From an uncultured Bacteroidales bacterium (GTDB lineage Bacteria; Bacteroidota; Bacteroidia; Bacteroidales; FEN-979), in the NCBI GenBank assembly GCA_903875045.1, contig CAIQUS010000184.1, positions 1-57,292 on the forward strand: a stretch of DNA of 57,292 nt, in the 5' to 3' direction. The first letter of the stretch is position 1. Every line of letters begins with the position of its first letter. This document shows positions 5,486 to 57,292 of the stretch, in pieces. The position numbers and the translations under genes were made by a program. The notes under the pieces were generated by a model. The model worked only from the letters and a program-made list of their open reading frames with translations. It ran no database searches and was not told the origin of the DNA.

Positions 5486-7885
5486 CTATTCGTTTTTTAT
5501 AAATTTTACAGTTTCAGTTTTATTTCCATCAATTATTTTCAGAAAGTAAATACCATAAGATAAACCGCTGATATCAATAATTTTCTGAGTCCCTGTTAAA
5601 GCAGAAGTCATTAGGATTTTGCCAGTTATATCAGAAATAATTATGGAAGCTTTTCTGTTTACTGCTGAACTGATATTTAATACATTACTTGCCGGATTTG
5701 GAAAAATTCTGATCGTTGAAGGAGCTGAAATTTCGGTAACACTTAATGGATTGGCAATAATATTCCAGTTAAAAAACTCCCAGCCGGAAGGCGCTGTTCG
5801 TGTACAGTTTAAACCTGCGGTTGAACCGTTTTCTGATGAAACATATTTATTGTTGCTGCCTTTTATTGTGTATAAACCATTTAAGTTCTCCAATGTAAAC
5901 TTCTGATTATTTCCAACTGAATCACCGCTGCAATATAATCTATTATCAGAAGTATTCAGGGTTACATATTTTCCGTTATATGCTTTCATGGCCGTTAGTC
6001 CGTTGCCGGCATCAATTAATGTAAACTGCTCTGTTGTGCCTGCGCTTGCCCGTGTGCTCGACATCAAATCACTATTTCCGGAGTAAGTAACATATTTATT
6101 GTTGTTTCCGCGAAGAGATATTACTTTTGCTGCTACAGGTAACGGGGTTACAGGCGGAATGTTTGAATTTAAAAACACGAAATTTACGGATGCCACGTTA
6201 AACCCACCTGAAGTATTCACAATCCTGAAACTTTGGATTCCGGTTTCTGCAAAGCCACCGGTGCAGGATACGGTTGTCCAGGCTGACCAACTTCCGGTTG
6301 TAGGAACGATGGCTGTTGCCATTAATTCAGTACCATCAGCATTTTGTATTTGTATGGTACCGCTGGTTGAACCTCCGTTTGCCACACGAAATTCTATTGT
6401 ATAAGTTCCTGCCAATGATACATCGCAGGTGTATTTCATCCATTCAGCTTTGTTAAACCAGCCTACGTTATACCCGTTCGATAAAACATCTGTACACGCT
6501 TCAATGTCAACGCCATTGTTCCGGTACGTCCAGCCTTCATTCCATGCTGTATAAACACCTGTGGTAAGATGCAAATCTTCCCAGGCCTGGTCGGAATAGG
6601 CGTAATCATTCATGCCCATATCATAGTTTGTTGCGTAAATTCTGCCAGGAATTGTATTGATTGCAAAAGGTTCTGTATCCCGGTTGCCGGGTTGCGTAAA
6701 AATAGAGCGCAGCACTTCTGTTTGGGGAGTTGCATTTTCAAGTTTAAGATTTTCGGCTAATTGCATCAGGATGTTTAATGCCGTTGACGGAACAATATTT
6801 GGATTGGTTCCGCTCAAATAACTTAATATGCTGTTGTAACCGGCAGGCCAATTTGCATCTGCAAAATCGTTGGTGCTTTCAAATTTTTTCATGGGCCACC
6901 ACGACATGCCAATATTATTCCGGTTGAATAATTCTGTTATTCTGGTGAAATTATTGTTTGAGTTTTCGCCATGTTCGCCGCACCAAATCGGACGGTTTTG
7001 CTGGCTTCGTAAATTGAGCACCCATTGAATATCAACATCGTTTGTGTTCGACCAGTATTTGTGAAATACATAAACCATGTTGTTATCCCATGCAGGTGTG
7101 AGACCTGTATAATCGTTTGCATACCAGTTGCCTTCAATGAATAATATGTGGTCATCGCCATTTGATCTGATCGTATCGGTTAATCTCCCGTATAAATTTC
7201 GTAAAAGTGTTCCGTTTGGCAGGTTCCACGCAGGTTCGTTTATGAGGTCATAACCGGCAATCCATGGTTCGTTTTTGTATCTTTCTGAAAGCTTGCGCCA
7301 AAGACGAACAGTTTTCGATTGATTGGCGGCACTTTCCCACAACGATGGTTTTGTTTTATCGTAATCGCTGATGGCATTATCGCTTTGACCACCCGGAGCT
7401 GCATGTAAATCAACAATTGCATACATTCCGGCAGTACTGCACCATGAAATTACACTGTCTAAAATATCAAAACCCTGATTATTCCATACATCGGGAGTTT
7501 CAAGATTTACAAAATATTCGTAATGCAGTGGTAATCGTACCGCATTAAAACCCCACTCTTTCACCTGATTTATATCTGCCTGGGTTACATGGTTTGTTAA
7601 CCATGCATCGTAAAATTGTTTTGTTTGTCCGGCACCAAGTAAGGCAGTTAATTTTTGTTTCCAGTCGTGCTGCGCTGGTGCCTGACTATTGGAATTCATC
7701 ATATATCCTTCCATTACCATCCAGTTGCCAAAGTTGATGGCATTGAGAACTACTTCCTGATTATTTGAAGTATTGATAATTTTCTTACCGCTTACAGCCA
7801 TAAGTTGTGCTGTTGCATTTATTTGAAACATAGCACATAGAATTGCTAAGAATGCAATTGTTTTGGTGTAGTGTTTTTTTATCAT
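5486..7885 (-). CDS. Secreted GH5 beta-glucanase with CBM6, beta-trefoil/fascin-like domain and T9SS sorting domain
   Basis: 799 residues. A signal peptide (about 1-27, ending NATAQ) precedes a family 5 glycoside hydrolase domain (about 35-380). The acid/base glutamate is E217 in LINEPAW and the nucleophile is probably E304 in WCGEHGEN. RLPLHYEYF and the DLHAAPGGQ motif are typical of the exo-1,3-glucanase/endoglucanase branch. A CBM6-like module (about 395-560) contains YDMGMNDYAYSD and VGWFNKAEWMKYTCDV. A region with three repeats of N-NKYV/GKYV (about 570-700) resembles fascin or ricin-type carbohydrate-binding folds. The end (IRIFPNPASNVLNIS ... YGIYFLKI) is a type A sorting domain for the type IX system. 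The product should be surface-attached or released and degrade beta-glucans. Exact substrate cannot be told. Confidence 0.93.
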   Translation of the reverse strand: MIKKHYTKTIAFLAILCAMFQINATAQLMAVSGKKIINTSNNQEVVLNAINFGNWMVMEGYMMNSNSQAPAQHDWKQKLTALLGAGQTKQFYDAWLTNHVTQADINQVKEWGFNAVRLPLHYEYFVNLETPDVWNNQGFDILDSVISWCSTAGMYAIVDLHAAPGGQSDNAISDYDKTKPSLWESAANQSKTVRLWRKLSERYKNEPWIAGYDLINEPAWNLPNGTLLRNLYGRLTDTIRSNGDDHILFIEGNWYANDYTGLTPAWDNNMVYVFHKYWSNTNDVDIQWVLNLRSQQNRPIWCGEHGENSNNNFTRITELFNRNNIGMSWWPMKKFESTNDFADANWPAGYNSILSYLSGTNPNIVPSTALNILMQLAENLKLENATPQTEVLRSIFTQPGNRDTEPFAINTIPGRIYATNYDMGMNDYAYSDQAWEDLHLTTGVYTAWNEGWTYRNNGVDIEACTDVLSNGYNVGWFNKAEWMKYTCDVSLAGTYTIEFRVANGGSTSGTIQIQNADGTELMATAIVPTTGSWSAWTTVSCTGGFAETGIQSFRIVNTSGGFNVASVNFVFLNSNIPPVTPLPVAAKVISLRGNNNKYVTYSGNSDLMSSTRASAGTTEQFTLIDAGNGLTAMKAYNGKYVTLNTSDNRLYCSGDSVGNNQKFTLENLNGLYTIKGSNNKYVSSENGSTAGLNCTRTAPSGWEFFNWNIIANPLSVTEISAPSTIRIFPNPASNVLNISSAVNRKASIIISDITGKILMTSALTGTQKIIDISGLSYGIYFLKIIDGNKTETVKFIKNE

Positions 7886-8002
7886 TTGAATTTTTTTAAT
7901 AAATCAATTACTTGCATTTCGCCAGCGAAATTACATTATTTTTTATAATATGTAAGTGATTACTGAAATTAATTTCATTTTACAAGTAATAATTTGTTTC
8001 AC

Positions 8003-8010
8003 TACCTTTG
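8003..8010 (+). promoter_or_regulatory. Probable -7 box of the HxlR gene promoter
   Basis: TACCTTTG matches the Bacteroidota -7 consensus TAnnTTTG perfectly. Without the MITE the distance to the HxlR ATG would be only about 24 bp, which fits a short leader; with the MITE it is more than 220 bp. No TTTG -33 box is visible at the expected spacing. Confidence 0.55.
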
Positions 8011-8035
8011 CGTGTCAGTTTGAATAACAAAAGAT

Positions 8036-8228
8036 GAGGGCACTCCGATAAGTCTGCTAACAAATAATTTAACCGCAGAGGGCCGCAGAGTATTTTTGCA
8101 GAGTTTCGCAAAGTTATAATTATCTGCGAGTTATCTCTGCGGATCTTTGCGGTTTCTTTGTGTTCTTTGCGGTTTAACATTTTTTTAAATGGTGATTTGA
8201 TGAATAAACGACTTTTCGGAGTGGACTC
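8036..8228 (+). mobile_element. MITE copy 1 (193 bp, imperfect terminal inverted repeats, 6-bp target duplication)
   Basis: The element starts GAGGGCACTCCGATAAGTC and ends in the inverse of GAGTCCACTCCGAAAAGTC (15 of 19 end positions agree between the two ends or nearly so). It is flanked by a perfect direct repeat AAAGAT (8030-8035 and 8229-8234). Inside are long imperfect inverted segments built of CCGCAGAG / CTTTGCGG units, so the RNA can fold into a long hairpin. A second copy, about 90 percent identical, lies at 45553-45744 with its own different 6-bp duplication. There is no transposase; it must be moved by an enzyme elsewhere. It sits between the promoter box and the start codon of the HxlR gene. 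Confidence 0.85.
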
Positions 8229-8232
8229 AAAG

Positions 8233-8682
8233 ATGGATGTAAAATTTAAATGTAATTGCCCGTTTACTTCAGCCCTGGATGTTGTAGGCGACAAGTGGTT
8301 GTTGGTTATCGTAAAGCAAATGCTAATCGAAGGCAAAGAAACCTTCAAAGACTTTACGGAAAGTGAAGAAGCCATTGCTACCAATATTCTTACGACTAAA
8401 CTCAAATTTCTGGAGGAGGTGGGAATCATCATCAAAACACAACGTCCGGATAATAAAAAGACCAACCTCTATCATTTAACCGATAGGGGATTGGCTTTGA
8501 CACCTGTTCTTGCAGAACTTGCAATTTGGAGCGATAGTTATCTTAGGGACATCCATCCGACCATTGTAAATGATGAAGCAATGGAATTATTGAGAAATGA
8601 CAAAGCAGCTTTTGCAAGTGCGTTTGAGAAAAAATACAGGGAAAAACTGGCTGCAACATCGGTTTTGCAAAATGGAGGGTGA
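8233..8682 (+). CDS. HxlR-family transcriptional regulator
   Basis: 150 residues from ATG 8233, the normal size for the family. The winged-helix core starts with the family signature (CNCPFTSALDVVGDKWLLVI), followed by FKDFTESEEAIATNILTTKL (recognition region) and the wing LYHLTDRGLALTPVL. HxlR proteins are dimeric repressors or activators, often sensing thiols or aldehydes; here a CNC motif at the N-terminus supplies two cysteines. The frame extends upstream without a stop to an ATG at 8200, which lies inside MITE copy 1 and would add 11 residues (MNKRLFGVDSK). ATG 8233 overlaps the right target duplication and is the likely ancestral start. Target genes are unknown; no partner is divergently transcribed next to it. 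Confidence 0.9.
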   Translation: MDVKFKCNCPFTSALDVVGDKWLLVIVKQMLIEGKETFKDFTESEEAIATNILTTKLKFLEEVGIIIKTQRPDNKKTNLYHLTDRGLALTPVLAELAIWSDSYLRDIHPTIVNDEAMELLRNDKAAFASAFEKKYREKLAATSVLQNGG

Positions 8683-9140: not shown

Positions 9141-9551
9141 ATGAAGTTAAAAATCATATCTCTTCTTCTGTTGCCGGTTTTATATTTTTCATGTAAAACT
9201 GAGAAAGACGTTATGTGTACCCAGGAATACCGCACGATTGCAGTATCGGTGAGGGATGCTGCTGCCAAACCAATTCTCCTGAGCCAGTATTATGTTAAAA
9301 AAACCAGCACCAACGAAATCATTGATTTTTCGATGGAAGACCCGCTGATGGACAGCATCAACCGGTTGCAGGGCATTTATACTTTATTTACGGATGGTAA
9401 AATGGCAATGACTATAAAAACCGGCACTGAATTTGAATTTCACGGAATTCTCGACTCAACAGAACTGGTGATTGAAAAATACCTGATTGGAAATGATGAA
9501 TGCCATGTGACCAAACTATCCGGAAAAACCGAAATCATCCTCACAAAATAA
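9141..9551 (+). CDS. Hypothetical lipoprotein
   Basis: 136 residues, unrecognised. The N-terminus is a lipoprotein signal (MKLKIISLLLLPVLYFSC) with lipobox YFSC at C18, so the product is likely anchored in a membrane. The mature part is rich in beta-strand pattern (YRTIAVSVRDAAAKPILLS and LVIEKYLIGNDECHVTKLSG) and resembles a single small immunoglobulin-like or carboxypeptidase-regulatory-like module. A pair of cysteines (CTQ near residue 26 and ECH near 121) could form a disulfide. It sits 15 bp behind the chagasin-like gene and is probably in the same transcript. No function is suggested by the sequence itself. Confidence 0.75.
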   Translation: MKLKIISLLLLPVLYFSCKTEKDVMCTQEYRTIAVSVRDAAAKPILLSQYYVKKTSTNEIIDFSMEDPLMDSINRLQGIYTLFTDGKMAMTIKTGTEFEFHGILDSTELVIEKYLIGNDECHVTKLSGKTEIILTK

Positions 9552-9562
9552 AACCCTTCATC

Positions 9563-9640
9563 CGCCCACCTGCCCACCCGGCCATCAGCCCACTCGCCCA
9601 CTCGCCCACTTGCCCACTTGCCCACTTGCCCACTTGTCCA
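9563..9640. repeat. Octamer tandem repeat (units CCCACTTG / CCCACTCG)
   Basis: Variants of an 8-bp unit repeated about eight times directly after the stop codon at 9551 and before the epimerase promoter. An open frame passes through the array on the plus strand, but its amino acids (repeated CPLA) are an artefact of the repeat. Confidence 0.85.
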
Positions 9641-9650
9641 CCCTTTTTCC

Positions 9651-9658
9651 TACCTTTG
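9651..9658 (+). promoter_or_regulatory. -7 promoter box of the epimerase gene
   Basis: TACCTTTG fits TAnnTTTG exactly and lies 20 bp before the ATG at 9679. No clear -33 TTTG is present; the octamer repeat array occupies that position. Confidence 0.55.
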
Positions 9659-9678
9659 CCCCTCCAAAAACCCCAACT

Positions 9679-10701
9679 ATGATCCTTGTTACCGGCGGTA
9701 CCGGCCTTCTGGGTTCCCACCTGCTTCTCGACCTTGTTCAATCCGGCAAACCGGTGAGGGCGATCAAACGTGCCACCAGTCATACGGAGATGGTTCGTAA
9801 GGTGTTCTCCTATTATGTTTCAAATCCTGATGAACTTGCCGGGAAGATTACGTGGGTAAATGCCGATCTCATGGATTTTGGCGCCATTGAAGATGCCATG
9901 CAGGGCGTCACGGAAATCTATCATGCAGGTGCTGTCGTCTCTTTTTTTCCAAAGGACCACAAGCAAATGCTGAAGGTAAACATTGAAGGAACCGCGAACC
10001 TGGTAAACCAGGCCATTGAAAGCGGTGTAAAAAAATTCTGCTATGTCAGTTCTGTGGCTACCCTTGGCAGAGCTGAAAACAATGAAGTTTCCACCGAGGA
10101 GACCTACTGGGTACCTTCAAAGAAGAACTCGGTGTATGGCATTAGTAAATACGGTGCCGAGCGTGAAGTGTGGCGGGGAATGGAAGAGGGTTTGAATGCA
10201 GTGATTATCAACCCTTCGGTTATCATGGGCCCGGGCTTCTGGCAGGATAACTCGGGGCTGTTCCGGCTGGTATATGAAGGACTGAAATATTACACCCGTG
10301 GAGTAAATGGTTACGTGGATGCACGTGACATCAGCAAAGCCATGATCAGCCTGATGGATGGAAACCACTTTGGTCAACGCTATATCTGCTCGGCAGAGAA
10401 TCTTTCGTACCAGGATTTTTTCGGACTTATTGCCAGGCATCTGGGCAAACCTGCCCCTTCAGTGAATGTTCCTCCGGTGATGACCTCTGTTGCATGGAGG
10501 GTGGAGGCTGTGAGGGCCTTTATCCTCAGGGTGAAGCCTGAGGTTACGAGGGAGATGGCCACGACCACTTCGCAAGTGTACACCTATTCCAGTGAGAAAC
10601 TTTGTAAAACACTGAATTTCAGATTTCGTCCTGCAGAGGATTCAATCCGGGAAATATGCGGGTTTTATCTCCGTGACTTAACCAAAGGAAAAACCTCCTG
10701 A
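9679..10701 (+). CDS. NAD(P)-dependent epimerase/dehydratase (extended SDR)
   Basis: 340 residues from ATG 9679. The frame continues upstream through the CCCACTTG array to 9610, but the Rossmann fold begins at once with MILVTGGTGLLGSHLL, which fixes the start. The dinucleotide motif GGTGLLG, the catalytic YGISK (Tyr/Lys pair) with an upstream Ser in CYVSSVATLG, and the NPSVIMGPG strand are all in place. Length and the C-terminal pattern (GQRYICSAENLSYQDFFGLI) fit the group of NAD-dependent epimerases and 3-beta-HSD-like reductases. The substrate, a nucleotide sugar or another hydroxy/keto compound, cannot be decided. It stands alone, convergent with the MltF-like gene. Confidence 0.9.
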   Translation: MILVTGGTGLLGSHLLLDLVQSGKPVRAIKRATSHTEMVRKVFSYYVSNPDELAGKITWVNADLMDFGAIEDAMQGVTEIYHAGAVVSFFPKDHKQMLKVNIEGTANLVNQAIESGVKKFCYVSSVATLGRAENNEVSTEETYWVPSKKNSVYGISKYGAEREVWRGMEEGLNAVIINPSVIMGPGFWQDNSGLFRLVYEGLKYYTRGVNGYVDARDISKAMISLMDGNHFGQRYICSAENLSYQDFFGLIARHLGKPAPSVNVPPVMTSVAWRVEAVRAFILRVKPEVTREMATTTSQVYTYSSEKLCKTLNFRFRPAEDSIREICGFYLRDLTKGKTS

Positions 10702-10720
10702 TTACCCTCATTGCCTGCAT

Positions 10721-12145
10721 TCACTTAATCAGGTTCCTGTAGTGGTAATACCTTGTCACAATGTCATCAACAAACCCTTCGGTTTTGTAGTCGATCGGGT
10801 AAGAATCAACAGTATCCTGTTTAGCAACCGGGTTTTTTTTTGAACGGTGTAAAAGGTAGTAATCTACATGTCCGTTCCACCGGTTCTTATCTTTCCCGTA
10901 TTTTTCGGCTTTTGTCCTGGCCGCAAACACCCGGCCAAGCCCGACGTTATAGGCGGCAAGCACAAAATAGATCCTTTCGACCGGGCTCGTGATTTCTTCG
11001 GGGAGAAGCTTGTCAAGGTATTTCAGGTATTTCACTCCGCCTGCAATTTGCCGCGACGGTGTGGAGGCACTGTCGATGCCGAATTTTGCTGCCGTTTCGG
11101 GCATCAGCTGCATCAGGCCGCTGGCCCTGTGCGATGAAGTGAGCCCCTGACGGAAATTCGACTCTTCATAGATGAGGGAGGCCACCAATCTCCAATCCCA
11201 CATCACCTGCCTGCTTTGTTCACGGATGACCTCATCAAATGGGGAAAGTTTAGTACCATGGACTGAGAAGTACTCACTCTTCATGAAATTTGCGATACGC
11301 TGATTATCGAAATATGAGAGATAGGTTTGCTTTAACTTCCCGGAGGCTTTATACTCCTTCAGCCAGGCATTTAACTCAGTGGCAAGGGAATCAGATGCAA
11401 GTCCCATTCCCCAGGCATAAGAATAGAGCGGGAATGCCAGCACCGAAATATCGAGGTTGCTGTAATACCGGTGATACACCATGGCAACATTTTCCTGACA
11501 AATGGCAAAGCGGATTTTTCCGGTGGAAACGCTGTTTAACAAATCTTCCTGGCGGATGTCGGGGACTTCTTTTATGATGGCATGTTTGCCAGTCTTTTTG
11601 TAGAAAGCATGATACTGGGGTGCGAGGAAGGGGTTCATGGAAACATAGACGGTATCGTCGGGAAAATCTTTCAGGGAATTTAAAACTTTCGGCACCGAAG
11701 GTAGTCCGGTCCTGGCAGCTTTGCATTGAACCAGTACCAGCCGGGTTTCGCCAAACGGATCGGAATAACGGACAAGCTTTTTGCCATCGCCCGATACCGG
11801 AAGATTCAGTGCGATCAGGTCGGCAGCATTGTATTGCAGGTAGTATTCCAGTTTTGAAGCATGGGTGCTGGCAATGATCCTGAGTGGCACCCCAAGGTAT
11901 TTTGCAAATGACTCCAGCAATATAAGCTGATATCCCATCGGCTCACCTTTGTAAATGAAATAATTGAGGGTATTTTTGTCGGTGAGGGCGATCAGGTATC
12001 CGCGTTCACGGATCCGCCGGAGGGCGTCTTTTTTTGCATCTTCACGGTGATACAGGCTCCGTGTAACGAAAAATGCAATGGCAACCACTGCCAATCCCAG
12101 GAAAATTGCCCTGAGAATGATGAATATCCTGGATTTCTTGTTCAA
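10721..12145 (-). CDS. MltF-like membrane-bound lytic transglycosylase
   Basis: 474 residues with one N-terminal membrane anchor (about 8-28). Residues about 40-270 form a type 3 periplasmic solute-binding domain (RIRERGYLIALTDKNTLNYF, YQLILLESFAKYLGVPLRI), and about 290-430 a lytic transglycosylase (SLT) domain. Its catalytic glutamate is in SLIYEESNF, with ASGLMQLMPETA and the AAYNVGLGRV motif. MltF enzymes cleave the glycan chain by forming 1,6-anhydromuramic acid, with the binding domain as allosteric control by peptides. It is the last gene of a minus-strand run behind ABC-2 permeases (10 bp gap) and probably shares their transcript, though a functional link to the exporter is not evident. 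Confidence 0.92.
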   Translation of the reverse strand: MNKKSRIFIILRAIFLGLAVVAIAFFVTRSLYHREDAKKDALRRIRERGYLIALTDKNTLNYFIYKGEPMGYQLILLESFAKYLGVPLRIIASTHASKLEYYLQYNAADLIALNLPVSGDGKKLVRYSDPFGETRLVLVQCKAARTGLPSVPKVLNSLKDFPDDTVYVSMNPFLAPQYHAFYKKTGKHAIIKEVPDIRQEDLLNSVSTGKIRFAICQENVAMVYHRYYSNLDISVLAFPLYSYAWGMGLASDSLATELNAWLKEYKASGKLKQTYLSYFDNQRIANFMKSEYFSVHGTKLSPFDEVIREQSRQVMWDWRLVASLIYEESNFRQGLTSSHRASGLMQLMPETAAKFGIDSASTPSRQIAGGVKYLKYLDKLLPEEITSPVERIYFVLAAYNVGLGRVFAARTKAEKYGKDKNRWNGHVDYYLLHRSKKNPVAKQDTVDSYPIDYKTEGFVDDIVTRYYHYRNLIK

Positions 12146-12154
12146 TATATATAT

Positions 12155-13273
12155 TTAAGAGACTTTTCGATATCTAAAAATGGCCAGGCTTAAACTGCAA
12201 ACCGCATAAATGACCATGGACCAAAAGTAGTTGCTGATATCTGCAAATCCTGATCCTTTCAGTAACACCATCCGCATGATTTTGATAAAGTACATCAGCG
12301 GATTCAGCCTGTCGAGGTTTTGCGCCCATAACGGCATGCTTTCAATGGAAGTAAACAAACCGCTCATGAGGATGAAGACAACCATAAAAAAGAACGAAAC
12401 CAGCATGGCTTGCTGTTGTGTATGGGTGATGGTTGAGATCAGCAGGCCAAATGACAAAATTACAAAAAGATAGACAGATGCCGACAGGAAAATTAATCCG
12501 AGGCTTCCTTCCATCGGAATATTGAACAGCAACTTGCCGATGGTAAGGCCAAAGGCCAGTTCAAACAGCCCTATGATCCAGAATGGCATCAGCTTGCCGG
12601 TGATAAACTGGATTTTGTTAATTGGGGTTACATTGATCTGTTCAATGGTCCCAATCTCCATCTCACGAACAATGTTCATTCCTGAAAGCAGCAGCCCGAT
12701 GATGGTGATGAGCAATACGAGGATCCCGGGAACCATGTAGGTTTTATAATTCAGTTTGGGATTATACCAGTAACTGTAATCAGTTTGAATGGTTTTTACC
12801 CCGGCCATCATCGCAGGGGTTGCATTCTCCAGCAATACTTCGCGGTTATAATCAAGCAGGATCATGGTAGAATATGCATTGGTGAGCCCGGCGCTTTGCC
12901 CGTTGATGGCGTTGATCACAAACTGTACTTTTGCGTGGCCCTCTTTCAGCAGCTTCTTTTCAAAATCAGCGGGGATATGAAGGATCATGTCGATATTTCC
13001 CCGTTTCATCTCATCTTCGGCTTTGAGGTATGAAAATGTTGTGCCTTCAATCTGGTAAAAGGGCGAACCCTGGAGTTTACTCACCAGTTTGCGCGAAGTT
13101 CCCGACAGATCGAGGTCAACCACCGAAACTCGGATGTGTTTCATTTCGTAGGTGGCTGCATTGACCAGGATGATCAGTTGAAAAACCGGTACGATAAAAA
13201 TGATCGGCAACATTGACTTGTTGCGGAAAACCTGCAAAAACTCCTTCTGGATGATATATAGAATTGTCCTCAT
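12155..13273 (-). CDS. ABC-2 type transporter permease (second subunit)
   Basis: 372 residues with the layout of YhhJ/YbhR-type permeases. There is one membrane helix near the N-terminus (MLPIIFIVPVFQLIILVNAA), a long periplasmic domain (about 45-175), then five helices ending near residue 370. The conserved ABC-2 signature around EMEIGTIEQINVTPI is present after helix 2. Its ATG overlaps the TGA of the upstream permease gene (TGATG at 13271-13275), so the pair is translated coupled and probably forms a heterodimer. With the two ATPases and the HlyD/TolC proteins upstream it makes a complete tripartite exporter for an unknown drug or lipid-like substrate. Confidence 0.92.
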   Translation of the reverse strand: MRTILYIIQKEFLQVFRNKSMLPIIFIVPVFQLIILVNAATYEMKHIRVSVVDLDLSGTSRKLVSKLQGSPFYQIEGTTFSYLKAEDEMKRGNIDMILHIPADFEKKLLKEGHAKVQFVINAINGQSAGLTNAYSTMILLDYNREVLLENATPAMMAGVKTIQTDYSYWYNPKLNYKTYMVPGILVLLITIIGLLLSGMNIVREMEIGTIEQINVTPINKIQFITGKLMPFWIIGLFELAFGLTIGKLLFNIPMEGSLGLIFLSASVYLFVILSFGLLISTITHTQQQAMLVSFFFMVVFILMSGLFTSIESMPLWAQNLDRLNPLMYFIKIMRMVLLKGSGFADISNYFWSMVIYAVCSLSLAIFRYRKVS

Positions 13274-14376
13274 CAGGTAAGCCGGACGTTGAATTTTTTA
13301 ATACTGAGTGCCAGGAAAACTGCGGTAAATCCTATCAGGATAAGCGTTTCACGCCAAACATATTCAATCCCGTTTCCCTGGAGCATGATGCTTTTTATGA
13401 TGGTGATGTAATATTTTGGTGGCATGATGTGGCAGAGTACCTGCATGATCAGCGGCATATTCTCGACCGGAAAAATAAACCCGCTGAGCAGGATCGTTGG
13501 CAGCATCAGCACTACCAGTGAGATCATCATGGCTACCTGCTGGCTGTTGGTGATGTTTGAAATCAGGATACCGAGTGAAAGAGCCATACAGATGTAGAGA
13601 AAACTTTCGAGCAGCAACAGAAAAATGCTTCCCATGATGGGCATGCCAAATACGAGGTGACCCAGTAAAAGAATGATGCAGGCATCAAGGAAAGCCAGAA
13701 AAACGTAAGGAAAAACCTTGCCAATGATGATCTGGTAAGGTTCCATCGGGGATACGAGCAACAATTCCATGGTTCCCAGCTCTTTTTCTTTGGTGATGGA
13801 AAGTGAGGTCATCAGTGCCGAAATCAACATCAGCAGCATGGCCATCAGTCCGGGAACGAACATATAAACCCCTTTCAGCTCGCCGTTATACATCATCCGC
13901 ACTTCGGGGATGATCTGGATCGGAACCTTTTCAGAATTCATGGAGATCAGGTAGTTGCTGATAATTCCGCTGGCATAATTCACCAGCATATTGGCGGTAT
14001 TGGGGTCGGATGCATCTCCGATGAGCTGGATACGGGCCTTTCCTCTCTTCTCCAGTTTTTGCGCAAAACCGGGTTCATAAATAACAGCCAGTTTAACGTT
14101 TCCCTGCCTGAAAACCGGGTCAATTTCATCCACTGAGTTCAGATTGCGTTCAAGGATAAAATATCCTGAGGAGAGTATCTTATCGCTGATCTTGCGGGTC
14201 ACCACATCCCCGGAGGGGTCATATATGGCAATTTTTGCATCTTTGATCTCATTGGTGAGTACATATCCAAACAACATCATCTGCACGGCAGGCATGCCAA
14301 AGAGGATCAGCAGGGTACGATAATCCCTGAAGATATGGTAAAACTCTTTGATGACAAACCCGTTGAACCGTTTCAT
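13273..14376 (-). CDS. ABC-2 type transporter permease (first subunit)
   Basis: 367 residues, paralogous to the next gene. One N-terminal helix (about 20-40), a large extracytoplasmic domain, and five helices from about 170. The motif KEKELGTMELLLVSPMEPYQ is the characteristic coupling-helix region of ABC-2 permeases, where the ATPases touch. The start overlaps the stop of the membrane protein gene upstream by 4 bp (14373-14376). It pairs with the next permease to make the channel of the exporter encoded by 12155-19403. Confidence 0.92.
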   Translation of the reverse strand: MKRFNGFVIKEFYHIFRDYRTLLILFGMPAVQMMLFGYVLTNEIKDAKIAIYDPSGDVVTRKISDKILSSGYFILERNLNSVDEIDPVFRQGNVKLAVIYEPGFAQKLEKRGKARIQLIGDASDPNTANMLVNYASGIISNYLISMNSEKVPIQIIPEVRMMYNGELKGVYMFVPGLMAMLLMLISALMTSLSITKEKELGTMELLLVSPMEPYQIIIGKVFPYVFLAFLDACIILLLGHLVFGMPIMGSIFLLLLESFLYICMALSLGILISNITNSQQVAMMISLVVLMLPTILLSGFIFPVENMPLIMQVLCHIMPPKYYITIIKSIMLQGNGIEYVWRETLILIGFTAVFLALSIKKFNVRLT

Positions 14377-52132: not shown

Positions 52133-52894
52133 TTATTGAAATGTAATCGGATGTGTATGAGCCGGAAGTTGCGAAACAGAAAGCGTAAAGTTTTCAATAC
52201 CGCCAATCTGCCCAAGAGTTTTGGGTATTAAGCCCGGGCCTGTTCCCTGGTTGATGGCAACCCGGCCCCGCAGATCGGGCAATCCGAAAGTTGTTTGTCC
52301 ATCCCCGCCATAAATGGTTCCAATGAGGGCAAAAAGGGTCGAATACTGTGAAATAGGCAATAGCGAGCCATCACATGAAGCATACCATAGGGGTGCAAAG
52401 TTGAACCCAAAGAATCCTATCTCTCCGATAAAGGTATCAGTGCCATTCCTTGAAGGGAAAATGCCCTCCAACGCGATGCTATAGTTCATGCAGAGGTACG
52501 GCTGCAAATTGCTGATAGCTGTGCCGTTGCCTGTTGAACCAAAAATGAGGTTTTTAGCCACCCAGTTGGTGCCGTCGAACGTCAGCAGGTCGTTGGTAGG
52601 AGGATTGGCTGCAGTTGAGGCTTTATCGATCATCTGTTTCCAGATGGTGCCATTGTAGAAGTAATAGCCCTTGGGGACATCGGTCTGGTAAACCAGCAAC
52701 CCTGCCACCGGACTGGCAATCAACCCGCGTTGCGCTGCAGACATGCGTGGCACGAGTACTCCCTTCGTGGTCGACTTTACATCGAGCATGGCAGATGTAC
52801 CCGGGGCGCTGCCATCGGTGGTAATGGCCACCTGGGCAAGACTGGAAAAGGTGCTTAATAAAATAAAGGCCAGAAATATGATGGAGGTTTTCAT
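52133..52894 (-). CDS. Exported phage tail-collar-domain protein
   Basis: 253 residues. A signal peptide (about 1-20, ending SLAQ) is followed by the segment [20 protein letters not shown], common at the front of Bacteroidota fibre-like proteins. The C-terminal ~95 residues form a tail collar domain ([51 protein letters not shown]), as in microcystin-dependent proteins. The signal peptide argues for an exported, non-phage use. A second, incomplete paralogue lies directly upstream. Confidence 0.85.
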
Positions 52895-52932: not shown

Positions 52933-53304
52933 TTACTGAAATGTTACGGTGTGTGTATGCGCCGGAAGTTGTGAAACAGAAAGTGTAAAGGTTTCAACAC
53001 CACTAACCTGGCCAAGAGTTTTAGGTGTCAGGCCTGGGCCTGTTCCCTGGTTTATGGCAACCCTTCCCCTCAGATCGGGCAATCCGAAAGTTGTTTGTCC
53101 ATTCCCGCCATAAGTAGTTCCCAGGAGTGAAAAAAGGGCCGTATTTAGTGAAATTTGCATCAGCCGGCCATCACACGAAGCATAATTCTTGGGCTCAAAA
53201 TCGAACCCAAAGAGTCCTATCTCTCCGATAAAAACCTCAGAGCCATTCCTTGAAGGGGCTAACTTGGCTTCTGGACAGGCAGTATTTACTAATGTTTTAA
53301 AGGG
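52933..53304 (-). pseudogene. Truncated second tail-collar-domain gene
   Basis: The minus-strand frame ending at 52933 encodes the same C-terminal domain as the neighbour ([36 protein letters not shown]). It can be followed upstream through SRNGSEVFIGEIGLFGF to about 53258, where similarity to the neighbour stops. The frame then closes at a TAG near 53311 with no start codon or signal peptide. It is a tandem duplicate that lost its front, possibly to the element that begins here. Confidence 0.75.
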
Positions 53305-53462
53305 TAGTGTCTAAAAACTGTCAACTTTACTGACACGTATTCAAATCGTACACGCCTAATTTGTAAACAAATGACAAGCTAAATAATTGCTTGTAACCCC
53401 TTGTAAAATTACGTTAATTTCCTTTCAAAAAATCTGAAGCTACCTGAAATAGTTTTATAAAA

Positions 53463-53590: not shown

Positions 53591-53640
53591 TTATTTGTAT
53601 ATCCTTGTATTTATTTGTATTATTCTGTACTAATTTGTAT
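53591..53640 (+). repeat. Five phased TTGTAT-type repeats, 10-bp period
   Basis: Five 10-bp units end in TTGTAT, TTGTAT, TTGTAT, CTGTAC and TTGTAT, spaced exactly one helical turn apart. They lie about 100 bp upstream of the HTH gene. Such spacing places all copies on one face of DNA and suggests a binding array. Confidence 0.7.
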
Positions 53641-53702
53641 TAAATAGTTCACTATCAAGTAGTTGTTCATAACTTTATTTTTTTTTATCACTCATGATTG
53701 TC

Positions 53703-54292: not shown

Positions 54293-54676
54293 ATGGCAAA
54301 ACTACAACGCTCACTATACGAGGGTGCCCCCGGTATGCTCATGGACAGGATCCATGAAGTCAATTCCCTGTTGGCTAATTCTGAATTAAAAACGGGACAG
54401 ACTGAATCCTGGAAATTCTGGAAAAAGACTAGTGATATCATGAAATACGCCTGGGACTACATGCAAAATCTCAATTGGGTGCTTAAAGAAAATTATGCAC
54501 TCAAAGAAGAAAACTCCTATTTGCGAGCTGCCCTGGCTCATGAGAGAGAAATCAACATGCACATTTCTGTACTCACTCATTTGAAATTGACTGATCAGTT
54601 TGAAGAGAGAGTAAAATTGGTTGATCAAATAATGGCTCTTGGTGTTAATGATTTAGGAGGAATATTCCGTGGATGA
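54293..54676 (+). CDS. Hypothetical helical protein of the mobile element
   Basis: 127 residues, unrecognised. Predicted almost all helix, with a likely coiled coil around WVLKENYALKEENSYLRAAL. Its stop (54674-54676) overlaps the start of the primase/helicase-like gene, so the two are translationally coupled, and it may be a replication accessory factor. That role is inference. Confidence 0.65.
   Translation: MAKLQRSLYEGAPGMLMDRIHEVNSLLANSELKTGQTESWKFWKKTSDIMKYAWDYMQNLNWVLKENYALKEENSYLRAALAHEREINMHISVLTHLKLTDQFEERVKLVDQIMALGVNDLGGIFRG
54655..54660 (+). promoter_or_regulatory. Ribosome binding site AGGAGG
   Basis: A perfect AGGAGG lies 8 bp before the GTG at 54669. Strong Shine-Dalgarno sites are rare in Bacteroidota; here it decides for the GTG start over any later ATG. 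Confidence 0.7.
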
Positions 54677-56837
54677 AAATATCGATCTCCTTGAGACAAA
54701 TGCCGGCAAAAAAGAAAAGATTTGTACCGAAGCTGAATTGTTGCTCACCCAAGCCGGTGACAATATCTTTCAGCAATCCGATGCAATTTCAGTAATCTGT
54801 CAGAACTTCATTGAACTCAAAGATCCAGCTTCGGCTGATCTGTTCTTCAAATACGTTTCCAAGAAGTTCAAAATATCAAAAAAGATTTTCACAGACACTT
54901 TCAAGAAACAATCTGATGAATCTAAAAAACCAAAGTTTGCAAGGGTAGCTGATTTCATCGAAGATGAAAATGACCCTGAACATAAACAAGGATGGTTCGT
55001 AAGAAAAAACTGTTATTGGTTCCATACCAAAGAGGGAGGTCCGGTTTGCGGATCAAATTTTATCATCATTCCCTTATACCATATCTATTCTAAAATCGAC
55101 AACAAACGCCTTGTTCGTATCACCAATGAACATGGCGATTCAAAGATCATTGACATACCATCAAAGAACTTTATTTCAGTTGAGCAGTTCCAGGCTTATG
55201 TTTATGGTGAAGGAAACTTTATCTGGACAGGTGGCAAAGCTCATTATCTTAAAATATTGAAATTTATCTCAAATGATTTCCCAGAGTGTGATGAACTCAA
55301 AACGTTAGGCTGGCAGCGTGAAGGATTTTACGCTTTCGCCAATGGCATTTATAACGGCTCCTGGCAGCCTGTAAATGAATTCGGGATAACATCCCATAAT
55401 GAAAAAAGGTACTTTTCTCCGGCCTTCTCAGTGGTGTACAGCAATGTCAGAGAAGATGATGATGAGTATGAAAACGACCGCTATTTTGTTTATAATGAAG
55501 CTCCCTGTAATTTCGGCCAGTGGTCGCAACTTATGACAGATGTTTATGGTAGCAATGCTACGATCGCTGTCTCTTTCGCCATCGCTACGGTTTTCCGCGA
55601 TCTTATCTATGAGAAATATAAAATCTTTCCTCACCTGTTCCTGTTCGGTGAAAAGCAGTCCGGTAAAAGTCAATTGGCCTGGTCATTGTCAAACCTCTTT
55701 TTCCATAATATGCCTGCATTCAACCTCAATTCAGGTACTCATGTCGGCCTTTCAAGAAAGGCTTCCCGGGCTAAAAATTCTATCGTTTGGGCCGATGAAT
55801 ATACCAATGATATTGACCCCCGGCGCTTTCAGTTGTTGAAAGCTGCCTATGACGGGGTTGGGCATGAGAAAGGAAAGTTGTCAAATGACAGCAGAACGAT
55901 GATTAATAAAATCAATGGCGCGTTCTGCATTTCCGGCCAGTATCTTCCAACGCTTGATGACAATGCACTTTTAACCAGGGCTTGCCTGCTTTCTTTTATC
56001 AAAAAGAAATATTCAAAACTGGAAATGGAAAAGTATGAGCAGCTTAAAAAGTTGGAGGTTGCAGGGATAAGTTCCCTTGTCTGCAAAATTGTTGATTTTC
56101 GGAAGGTCATGGAAGAACAATTCGCAATGACCTTTTCCGCTATCCAGGAAGAACTGAAGGCAGACATGACCAATGAAAACCTTCCTTACGATGAAAGACT
56201 GGTTCGCAATTATTGCTGTTTGCTTGCACCGGTGAAGATAATCCTTGAAAGCGCGAACCCACTTGAGCTTAGTTTCACCTATGAAACACTTTACGCTCAG
56301 GTTAAACATGATATTGCTTCCATGTCAAAGCAGATCAGCAGTTCAGAATCTATTTCAAACTTCTGGAAGACCGTTGAGTATTTGCTTGATGAAGGAAAGA
56401 TACAGTCTGGGGTGGATTTCAAAATCAATGTTACTCCTTCCCTGTCATATACGGATAAGGACGGGAAAGAAAAGACCGGTCCTTTTGATAAACCCCAAAA
56501 CCTCCTGTTCATCCGGTTTTCAAGGGTTCATCCGCTTTACATGGAAAAATGGCGCCAACAGACCGGTAAAAACGGGATCGACCTGATTTCAATTCTCCAT
56601 TACCTTAAAAACAATAAGTCTTATGTTGGTAACGCTTCTGGGGTTCGCTTCGATACCAGTAACACTTCCGCTTATGTGTTCAAATATGGACCTGGTGAAC
56701 TAGATGTGAACCTTGAAAGGACTGTCCGGGATTCCTTTTCAAAAGCCAATAGTGCTATTGAACAGGAACTTACACCAGTGAAACCGCCCGAGGACCTGCA
56801 GTCGGAGATCGATCTGAACCCTGAACCACCATTCTGA
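54669..56837 (+). CDS. Primase/helicase-like replication ATPase (DUF927-like) of a mobile element
   Basis: 722 residues from GTG 54669. The middle (about 170-300) resembles the DUF927-type region of plasmid and phage replication proteins (DELKTLGWQREGFYAFANGI). An ATPase domain follows with Walker A GEKQSGKS (327-334) and Walker B NSIVWADEY, then a sensor-like stretch (GAFCISGQYLPTLDDNALLT) with the arginine in TRACLL. No Toprim or polymerase motif is recognised at the N-terminus, so primase activity is not certain; helicase-type replication initiation is the better guess. A putative origin with iterons lies directly behind the stop. Start chosen by the AGGAGG site and overlap with the upstream gene. 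Confidence 0.75.
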   Translation: MDENIDLLETNAGKKEKICTEAELLLTQAGDNIFQQSDAISVICQNFIELKDPASADLFFKYVSKKFKISKKIFTDTFKKQSDESKKPKFARVADFIEDENDPEHKQGWFVRKNCYWFHTKEGGPVCGSNFIIIPLYHIYSKIDNKRLVRITNEHGDSKIIDIPSKNFISVEQFQAYVYGEGNFIWTGGKAHYLKILKFISNDFPECDELKTLGWQREGFYAFANGIYNGSWQPVNEFGITSHNEKRYFSPAFSVVYSNVREDDDEYENDRYFVYNEAPCNFGQWSQLMTDVYGSNATIAVSFAIATVFRDLIYEKYKIFPHLFLFGEKQSGKSQLAWSLSNLFFHNMPAFNLNSGTHVGLSRKASRAKNSIVWADEYTNDIDPRRFQLLKAAYDGVGHEKGKLSNDSRTMINKINGAFCISGQYLPTLDDNALLTRACLLSFIKKKYSKLEMEKYEQLKKLEVAGISSLVCKIVDFRKVMEEQFAMTFSAIQEELKADMTNENLPYDERLVRNYCCLLAPVKIILESANPLELSFTYETLYAQVKHDIASMSKQISSSESISNFWKTVEYLLDEGKIQSGVDFKINVTPSLSYTDKDGKEKTGPFDKPQNLLFIRFSRVHPLYMEKWRQQTGKNGIDLISILHYLKNNKSYVGNASGVRFDTSNTSAYVFKYGPGELDVNLERTVRDSFSKANSAIEQELTPVKPPEDLQSEIDLNPEPPF

Positions 56838-56885
56838 CTTTGAAAAAAATAAAAATCAGTGATATTTTTCATGAAAACCGATTCT

Positions 56886-57017
56886 ACCTTTCCAACAGTC
56901 CAACAATTTTATATTTTATTGATTTATAATATATTAAAGGTATAAAAGGTGTTGGAACCTGTTGGAACGTGTTGGAACGTGTTGGACGCTGTTGGACTGT
57001 TGGACTGTTGGAAAGGT
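56886..57017. other. Putative replication origin: iterons, AT-rich stretch, 20-bp inverted repeat
   Basis: A perfect inverted repeat (56886-56905 and 56998-57017, arm ACCTTTCCAACAGTCCAACA) bounds the block. The left arm is followed by an AT-rich stretch (56906-56947, mostly A/T). Then come seven direct copies of TGTTGGA at 56950, 56960, 56970, 56980, 56990, 56998 and 57006 (spacing 10,10,10,10,8,8), and two inverted copies lie in the left arm. Position just after the replication ATPase gene fits an iteron origin. Alternatives are a conjugation or integration site. Confidence 0.6.
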
Positions 57018-57082
57018 AATTTGCCTCTGGCAAACCCCAAATATATTTTTTTTTTTGAAAATTCAGCCAAACTCTACCCGAA

Positions 57083-57292
57083 ATGAATCTGCCACCTTTT
57101 AAGAAAAATCAAAGCGGCTTCGCATACTTTAGCGAGCTTCCGGAAAACTTTCGTCTGGCGACCATTGATGATTTTATTGTGGATGGGAAACGCAGGATTG
57201 GTCTGATGTTCCTCATTCAATGGATTGATGATGCCTGCTTTTATCAGATATGTTATGTCTCGATGAACCTTACTCGTAAGATCCTTGGGCCG
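57083..57292 (+). CDS. Hypothetical protein, 3' end outside window
   Basis: Seventy codons from ATG 57083 to the window edge: MNLPPFKKNQSGFAYFSELP, then ENFRLATIDDFIVDGKRRIG and LMFLIQWIDDACFYQICYVS. Unrecognised. It lies behind the putative origin on the same strand as the replication ATPase and is probably part of the element. Confidence 0.55.
   Translation, partial: MNLPPFKKNQSGFAYFSELPENFRLATIDDFIVDGKRRIGLMFLIQWIDDACFYQICYVSMNLTRKILGP

Follow-up and report, generated by a model that had tools for sequence, protein, structure and literature searches.

A putative iteron-type replication origin directly downstream of a Rep-like helicase gene in a probable Bacteroidota prophage

We analyzed a stretch of 57,292 nucleotides from an uncultured Bacteroidales bacterium (contig CAIQUS010000184.1; hereafter, the window) that contains, close to its right end, an array of short repeats located directly behind the gene for a predicted helicase. 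This array is very probably the replication origin of a Bacteroidota prophage, with the 722-aa protein encoded by the preceding gene being an initiator of the SaPI Rep/SCCmec Cch type. Computation yields the array itself, its coupling to the helicase gene in many relatives, a conserved layout, the change of the repeat unit as a set, covariation between the unit and a winged-helix-like part of the helicase, a fold match, and an IHF-type site in relatives.

Two sets of repeats flank an AT-rich region

The stop codon of the helicase gene ends at position 56837, and an inverted repeat that encloses the entire array starts at 56885 (Table 1). Nine exact copies of TGTTGGA are present in 56891-57012, seven direct ones (starting at 56950, 56960, 56970, 56980, 56990, 56998 and 57006) and two inverted ones, just as the initial annotation had described them, down to the spacing of the direct copies. 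The perfect inverted repeat reported there is present as well, and is 21 bp rather than 20 bp long, with 56885-56905 pairing with 56998-57018; the AT-rich stretch between the units is likewise real, with a length of 44 nt instead of 42. The two iteron sets lie on either side of this stretch (56906-56949). By eye, an element of the form AATCAATAAT / TTATTGATT recurs in the AT-rich centres of relatives.

The hexamer GTTGGA occurs nine times within 56838-57083, against a maximum of five copies for any 6-mer in 2000 dinucleotide shuffles. Across the window, there are 12 copies of TGTTGGA, with 12.87 expected, and nine of these 12 are inside the array. The spaced pair TGTTGGANNNTGTTGGA is found four times in the genome to which the window belongs (5.96 Mb, 253 contigs), each time within this array. 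A 30-bp match on another contig of that genome (C83) falls inside an ORF resembling an ATPase and was taken as chance. Elsewhere in the window, one place scores equally, with nine copies of ATCACA/TCACAT around 1151-1500, the ATCACA copies all direct; the array scan also detected a second dense 6-mer repeat, eight copies of GCCCAC, around 9561-9730.

Table 1 Features of the putative replication region in the window.
Feature	Coordinates	Strand	Details
Small helix-turn-helix protein, 60 aa	53736..53918	+	First gene of the putative replication operon; HTH_17 E = 7.4e-6, 26.6 bits against a cut-off of 27; phrog_66 (excisionase/regulator) 1.2e-4
Small ORF, 78 aa	53993..54229	+	No family match
Small ORF, 127 aa	54293..54676	+	No family match above the cut-off; overlap with the start of the helicase gene; DNA matches in several relatives
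Predicted initiator helicase (Rep-like) gene, 722 aa	54669..56837	+	GTG start as listed; P-loop GEKQSGKS; primase part not recognisable
Codons of residues 616-675, predicted C-terminal winged-helix-like part	56514..56693	+	Predicted secondary structure; fold name from element order
Whole putative origin	56885..57018	.	Perfect inverted repeat of 21 bp around the iterons and the AT-rich centre; recurrence in relatives
Left iteron set	56891..56905	-	Two inverted TGTTGGA, 56891-56897 and 56899-56905, 8 bp apart
AT-rich centre, putative melting region	56906..56949	.	44 nt, unit-free, 39 A/T (89% AT), counted by eye
IHF-type near-match AATCAATAAAATA	56912..56924	-	One mismatch to WATCARNNNNTTR; in the AT-rich centre
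Right iteron set	56950..57012	+	Seven direct TGTTGGA; steps of 10, 10, 10, 10, 8 and 8 bp
Next ORF, start only (contig end)	57083..57292	+	Neighbourhood, not part of the origin; the match of relative L017 to the window ends at 57087

The gene preceding the array encodes a predicted helicase

The product of the preceding gene had been recognized from the sequence as a replication ATPase, and this assignment is borne out by matches to phrog_22657 (E = 1.3e-31) and phrog_1139 (DNA primase; E = 6.2e-17), which identify a replication-type ATPase/helicase, as well as by structure comparison. A structural model built on an alignment of 38 sequences (pLDDT 83.6, pTM 0.68) has, as its best solved Foldseek hits, 5dgk (SCCmec Cch; 1.5e-14) and 8tch (SaPIBov1 Rep; 9e-13); the Foldseek TM values are 0.47 by query and 0.62 by target for 5dgk_B, and 0.44 and 0.62, respectively, for 8tch_B. 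The window protein is accordingly modelled as an AAA+ helicase, with a predicted fold of the SaPI Rep/Cch kind. It has no match among the Pfam (at 0.1) or NCBIfam (at 0.01) models, and sequence searches with two alignments retrieved no relevant solved structure. Among the 38 aligned family members, five match DUF927 (best 5.4e-6) and two match NCBIfam Cch1 (best 8.3e-7). In some relatives, for example, the one on contig C150 of the same genome, motifs suggest a DnaG-like part N-terminal of the helicase; the window protein is too short for such a part.

In the model, the C-terminal part of the protein consists of two helices (residues 617-632 and 639-647) followed by two strands (652-660 and 665-673). 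We read this order of elements as a winged helix. The part includes residues 655 (codon 56631-56633) and 657 (codon 56637-56639), both of which covary with the iteron. At the very C-terminus, 69 of 116 helicases end with Pro-Phe or Pro-Tyr, 35 of these 69 with at least three acidic residues among the preceding eight; the respective positions in the window are 56829-56834. The SSB of the same genome ends with EDDLPF, and the helicases of four relatives (L020, L035, L051 and L079) end with DDLPF. Judging by sequence, this tail seems to copy the tip of SSB through which replication proteins are recruited.

The array recurs behind the helicase gene in relatives

Relatives were collected from viral contigs, bacterial genomes and phage records, resulting in 152 loci, all with the helicase gene; from the viral-contig scan, the best 80 of 157 viral relatives were taken. 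The table of loci leaves out the pieces of the window's own genome except L011 (including the truncated L009 and L010), the truncated L033, the near-copy L041, and the contigs fetched twice (L136-L140 and L142-L145). Counting that genome in each case, the helicase family is represented in 35 of the 393 sampled genomes of the order (E = 1e-40), 5 of 395 of the class (1e-40), and 3 of 395 of the phylum (1e-20). Requiring at least 390 bp 3' of the gene and removing near-identical helicases left 116 non-redundant relatives. An array was counted where, in the 600 bp following the gene, a single 6-mer had six or more copies within 220 bp.

By this definition, 70 of the 116 relatives carry an array no more than 600 bp 3' of the helicase gene. 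The controls yielded none, be it between 700 and 100 bp ahead of the gene end (0/116), upstream of the gene (0/81), or in shuffled sequences (0/116, taking the best of five shuffles per locus). The helicases of relatives with this arrangement are down to 22-25% identical to that of the window. This recurrence, together with the covariation of the unit with the predicted DNA-binding domain described below, upholds the proposal of the initial annotation that an iteron origin directly follows the replication ATPase gene.

The absence of a nearby array in the remaining 46 relatives is in part due to the strict test: arrays are visible in L018, L020, L026 and L029, with scores below six. A two-direction array elsewhere in the available DNA was detected in 15 of the 46, compared to 0/46 in one whole-locus shuffle each, and some of these 15 may be coding repeats; the other 31 also lack an array in the rest of the available DNA, which for many is only little. 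In a Porphyromonas gingivalis phage (BK068108), GTTGGA units are located about 2.4 kb behind the primase gene.

The latter record, 44 kb in length, is that of a phage with genes for terminase, portal, capsid and tail. Head protease genes are found in relatives, with a head maturation protease downstream in L016, and L021 has an integrase gene about 6 kb upstream of its array. The virion genes in the relatives would speak for a phage rather than a satellite; the element in the window itself is cut at 57292. Between its array and its head protease gene, L021 additionally carries a reverse transcriptase gene (9940-10908; PF00078, E = 1.4e-18). One close relative with a full array, L030 (PWDX01000171.1), comes from a bin named Phycisphaerae, reflecting either a jump between hosts or misbinning. 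Cumulative GC skew did not turn at the array in either of two complete relatives, in which nearly all genes are on one strand; as an origin test, it is here uninformative or mildly against.

The layout is kept and the unit changes as a set

In the 25 close relatives, the array consists of inverted units, an AT-rich centre, and direct units mostly in 10-bp steps, with the 8-bp steps last. On the left, there are two inverted units, 7-8 bp apart, in 19 of these relatives and one in the other six. The inverted units, which had been considered unusual for an iteron array, are therefore a regular component here, and flanking sets are the published form of PICI origins in the pertinent passages of PMC6092414.

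The unit itself varies as a set, appearing across the close relatives as TGTTGGA, TGTAGGG, TGTAGGA, TGTAGGT, TGTAGTT or TGTAGCA. Two forms are mixed at a few loci (L018, L026, L027 and L029), with weak majorities in L027 (3/5) and L029 (5/8). Because the units change together and the spacing stays, this pattern points to one DNA-binding protein.

An IHF-type site in the arrays of relatives

The AT-rich centre of the window contains a near-match to WATCARNNNNTTR, the E. coli IHF consensus. The exact form of WATCARNNNNTTR is present in 49 of the 70 relatives with an array; the window is outside these 49. For the same 70 loci, shuffling gave a mean of 6.1 and a maximum of 15, the inside of the gene contained the sequence in two, and six scrambled patterns occurred in four to eight. 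The site is located within the array span in 42 of the 49 relatives, and in the largest unit-free gap in 34. The motif was first spotted by eye and then tested; its frequency is 33/46 among array loci that had not been inspected before the test and 16/24 among the inspected ones, and under a laxer list, 40/54 among the uninspected. The genome of the window encodes five HU/IHF-family proteins; we infer that Bacteroidota proteins read the E. coli-type consensus. In the passages on SSB and AT-rich regions in PMC6092414 and PMC7581432, IHF is not mentioned.

The iteron unit covaries with the predicted winged helix

The covariation was noticed by eye first and then tested. In a scan of the whole protein across the 25 close relatives, Tyr655 is, of all columns, the one that best tracks a G at base 7 of the unit, being present in 8/8 relatives with G and in 1/17 without it (Fisher 8e-6, with no correction for kinship or for how many columns were compared). 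With rows of more than 85% identity and the same base merged, the proportions are 7/7 and 1/11. Between L027 and L026, GGG is replaced by GGA along with I640V, Y655S and N657T, the sole differences in 60 winged-helix residues; between L035 and L036, the same replacement is accompanied by Y655S and N657S among 8 differing residues out of 58. The move from GGG to GGA is thus found in parallel in two distant clades, each time with Y655S and either N657T or N657S. Tyr655 and Asn657 are common to L018, L027, L019, L020, L021 and L035, which are up to 47% different, and L022 and L030, also with GGG, combine Tyr655 with Asp657.

On a tree built without the winged-helix domain, using residues up to 535, base 7 requires seven changes; this tree includes some long branches and one doubtful join, and the well-supported branches force fewer changes (taken one by one, 4 A, 4 G, 3 T). 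In a partial matrix correlation over 562 columns that allows for overall divergence, residue 655 is in fifth place for the unit core and in second place for base 7. The winged helix, with 45 of the 562 columns, contributes six of the top 20 columns for the unit core (p = 0.003) and four of the top 20 for base 7 alone (p = 0.07). Residues outside the domain rank above 655 in this test, with 404 being first for the unit core and 364 for base 7, and unit base 8 shows no relation (ranks 97 and 113 of 562). There are exceptions, with Tyr655 accompanying base T in L031, and Asn655/Asn657 accompanying GGA in L146, and the residue-to-base relation, as read from these alignments, is not a clean code.

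Comparison of whole loci adds to this picture. In L027, identity to the window amounts to 83% for the left small ORFs and 87% for the right ORF, as against 57% for the ORF at 54293, 65-73% for the helicase and 56% for the array region; for L018, the values are 84%, 77%, 60%, 61-71% and 59%, respectively. The helicase and the array appear to differ together in both loci, chimeric assembly of contigs being an alternative source of this pattern. Altogether, the comparisons suggest that the helicase and its site change in step among relatives.

Neighbouring genes and ends of the element

The window is contig C184 of its assembly and terminates at the last base of the contig, 57292. It is 99.8% identical over 4045 bp to L023, an uncultured Bacteroidales assembly whose near-identity assigns the host to the Bacteroidota, and both assemblies break at the same base (57292 in the window, 4156 in L023), probably at an assembly fork; at its left end, L023 carries different DNA. 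The likely left end of the element is around 53248-53340, where similarity to L018, L023, L033 and L034 begins near 53266 and the DNA outside differs. Just outside this end, L033 and L034 contain, by eye, a tRNA-like sequence; the window has a truncated ORF there, similar to its neighbour at 52133-52894. Upstream of the small helix-turn-helix gene, at about 53593-53645, several TTGTATT-like repeats were spotted by eye and are possibly an operator.

The same genome contains three further fragments with this helicase family, on contigs C144 (L009), C150 (L010) and C4 (L011), so that several such prophages probably reside in one host. The fragment on C4 has an array of its own, with a different unit, directly 3' of its helicase gene.

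Alternative interpretations of the array

Short repeats in two directions can also be sites for recombinases, partition systems or packaging. The array being an arm or resolution site of a site-specific recombinase, or else a partition or packaging site, instead of an origin, appears unlikely to us, even if some of the distant arrays invite this reading. In L040, L046, L090 and L087 (the Cellulophaga phage Ingeline, whose array is weak), the array is 2-6 kb away from the helicase and directly behind a tyrosine recombinase gene (11084-11917, 12813-13616, 7692-8495 and 9332-10123, respectively), with matches to PF00589 (phage integrase family) at E values of 1e-36, 2e-39, 2e-40 and 7.7e-23; the ORF before the L050 array looks recombinase-like by eye. 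However, among the eight genes scanned in front of distant arrays, these are the four recombinases, the others being YopX, a DnaA-like C-terminal part, a YhgA-like transposase, and one without a match. No recombinase, ParA or ParB is encoded by the ORFs scanned near the window array, with the helix-turn-helix gene giving a weak excisionase-type match (phrog_66), and the integrase gene of L021 lies about 6 kb upstream of its array. Given that the helicase is the direct neighbour of the array in 70 relatives and that the unit covaries with it, we favour a scenario in which a recombinase gene came between the helicase and the origin in L040, L046, L090 and L087 over one in which the repeats serve the recombinase.

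The position of the repeats between two genes on the same strand, with the helix-turn-helix gene (53736) close by, would also suit an operator, through which that small protein or another phage regulator controls the next gene or the early operon. This we consider highly improbable: the array follows the helicase and not the next gene, as illustrated by L017, in which the helicase gene and the array match the window and similarity then ends at 57087; furthermore, 70 of the 116 relatives have an array behind the helicase, and its unit covaries with the helicase's own winged helix. Least of all do we expect the arms to form a large hairpin, as RNA structure or as the cruciform suggested in the initial annotation. 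The arms are perfect in the window, and the RNA fold of 56880-57025 has a z-score of -6.9; among the 25 close relatives, however, all 21 pairs are retained in only four, with 14-19 of the 21 in the other 21. Moreover, the left and right spacings are unequal (7 and 8) in L036-L038 and L147, which puts the arms out of register, the middle direct units, which are outside the arms, change along with them, and neither a terminator-like site (terminator scan) nor an Rfam family (Rfam scan) was found. Because the perfect inverted repeat is not conserved, a cruciform or RNA hairpin was rejected as the main function.

Discussion

With the array read as a replication origin, we infer the following course of initiation in the cell. 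The 722-aa protein would be a self-loading hexameric helicase of the SaPI Rep/SCCmec Cch kind that binds the TGTTGGA units through its C-terminal winged helix. The head-to-head iteron sets, two units on the left and seven on the right, would seat two facing helicase assemblies across the AT-rich centre; this centre would then melt, probably aided by a host HU/IHF-family protein that bends it, and two forks would leave from it.

A much broader proposal, which we put forward tentatively and consider somewhat doubtful, is that this is the general origin of a large lineage of temperate Bacteroidota phages. Under it, the specificity of a SaPI-type self-loading helicase would shift by paired moves of an iteron base and residues 655/657, a bend made by host HU/IHF would load two head-to-head rings, the SSB-tip-like tail would recruit the host replisome, and the unit would serve as an incompatibility tag for coexisting prophages.

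The origin reading would extend the PICI-type plan to phage genomes of another phylum. The units form a natural series (GTTGGA, GTAGGG, GTAGGA, GTAGGT, GTAGTT, GTAGCA and others) with matching helicases, which offers a direct test of how an initiator and its origin change together without loss of function. The array pattern provides a route to finding origins in Bacteroidota prophages and to predicting which of these can coexist, and the IHF-type site in 49 of the 70 arrays would add a host factor to such origins. Among the matches listed from the open-licence PMC literature, none dealt with iteron-type origins in Bacteroidota phages.

Classical iteron plasmids of the Rep_3/RepA type and the lambda O system likewise have repeated sites for the initiator next to an AT-rich region. 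The initial annotation saw in the window the classical form of an iteron origin; the origin part of that reading stands, and a prophage with a SaPI/PICI-type initiator helicase fits better than a classical iteron plasmid. The putative window initiator, as opposed to those of Rep_3/RepA plasmids, is itself helicase-like and has no Rep_3 match, and a plasmid of that type was dismissed on account of the predicted helicase fold and the lack of a Pfam match at 0.1. The lambda origin, according to the relevant passage of PMC6022878, lies inside gene O. A lambda-type origin was discarded given that the window array is outside the gene and no array (0/116) was detected in the stretch 700-100 bp before the gene end. 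The alpha protein of phage P4 is a phage primase-helicase whose C-terminal domain binds short repeats, and carries its own primase. The window protein is without a recognisable primase.

The Cch protein of SCCmec (5dgk) is the top Foldseek hit of the window helicase, and two of the 38 family members match Cch1. As described in the passages of PMC7581432 on Cch2, the C-terminal domain of that protein bound a putative origin 3' of its gene in vitro, the direct repeats being required, and deletion of inverted repeats left binding unaffected; there are three 5-nt iterons in that case, compared to nine 7-nt units in the window, and SCCmec is a different element.

The closest likeness in layout is to the rep-ori of SaPIs and PICIs, exemplified by SaPIBov1 Rep and E. 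coli EcCICFT073. In the parts of PMC6092414 and PMC7581432 that deal with these origins, the origin, like the array in the window, is directly 3' of the helicase gene, with SaPI Rep recognizing the iterons immediately downstream of its gene via the C-terminal domain (PMC7581432). The origin passages of PMC6092414 describe PICI origins as always consisting of two iteron sets that flank an AT-rich region, immediately 3' of the initiator gene, which matches the two sets of short iterons in the window; they report that a PICI rep-ori maintains a plasmid, and call this organisation unique to PICIs. SaPIBov1 Rep is among the best-matching solved folds of the window helicase, with a remote sequence relation. 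The differences are that the relatives of the window element are Bacteroidota phages with virion genes rather than established satellites, and that the 8/10-bp layout, the IHF-type site in arrays of relatives, and the SSB-like tail on many helicases are found here. As the window array shares the plan of PICI origins, we place it with that kind, in Bacteroidota phages: on the sequence comparisons, it is to be regarded not as a new category but as a putative variant of the PICI-type origin plan.
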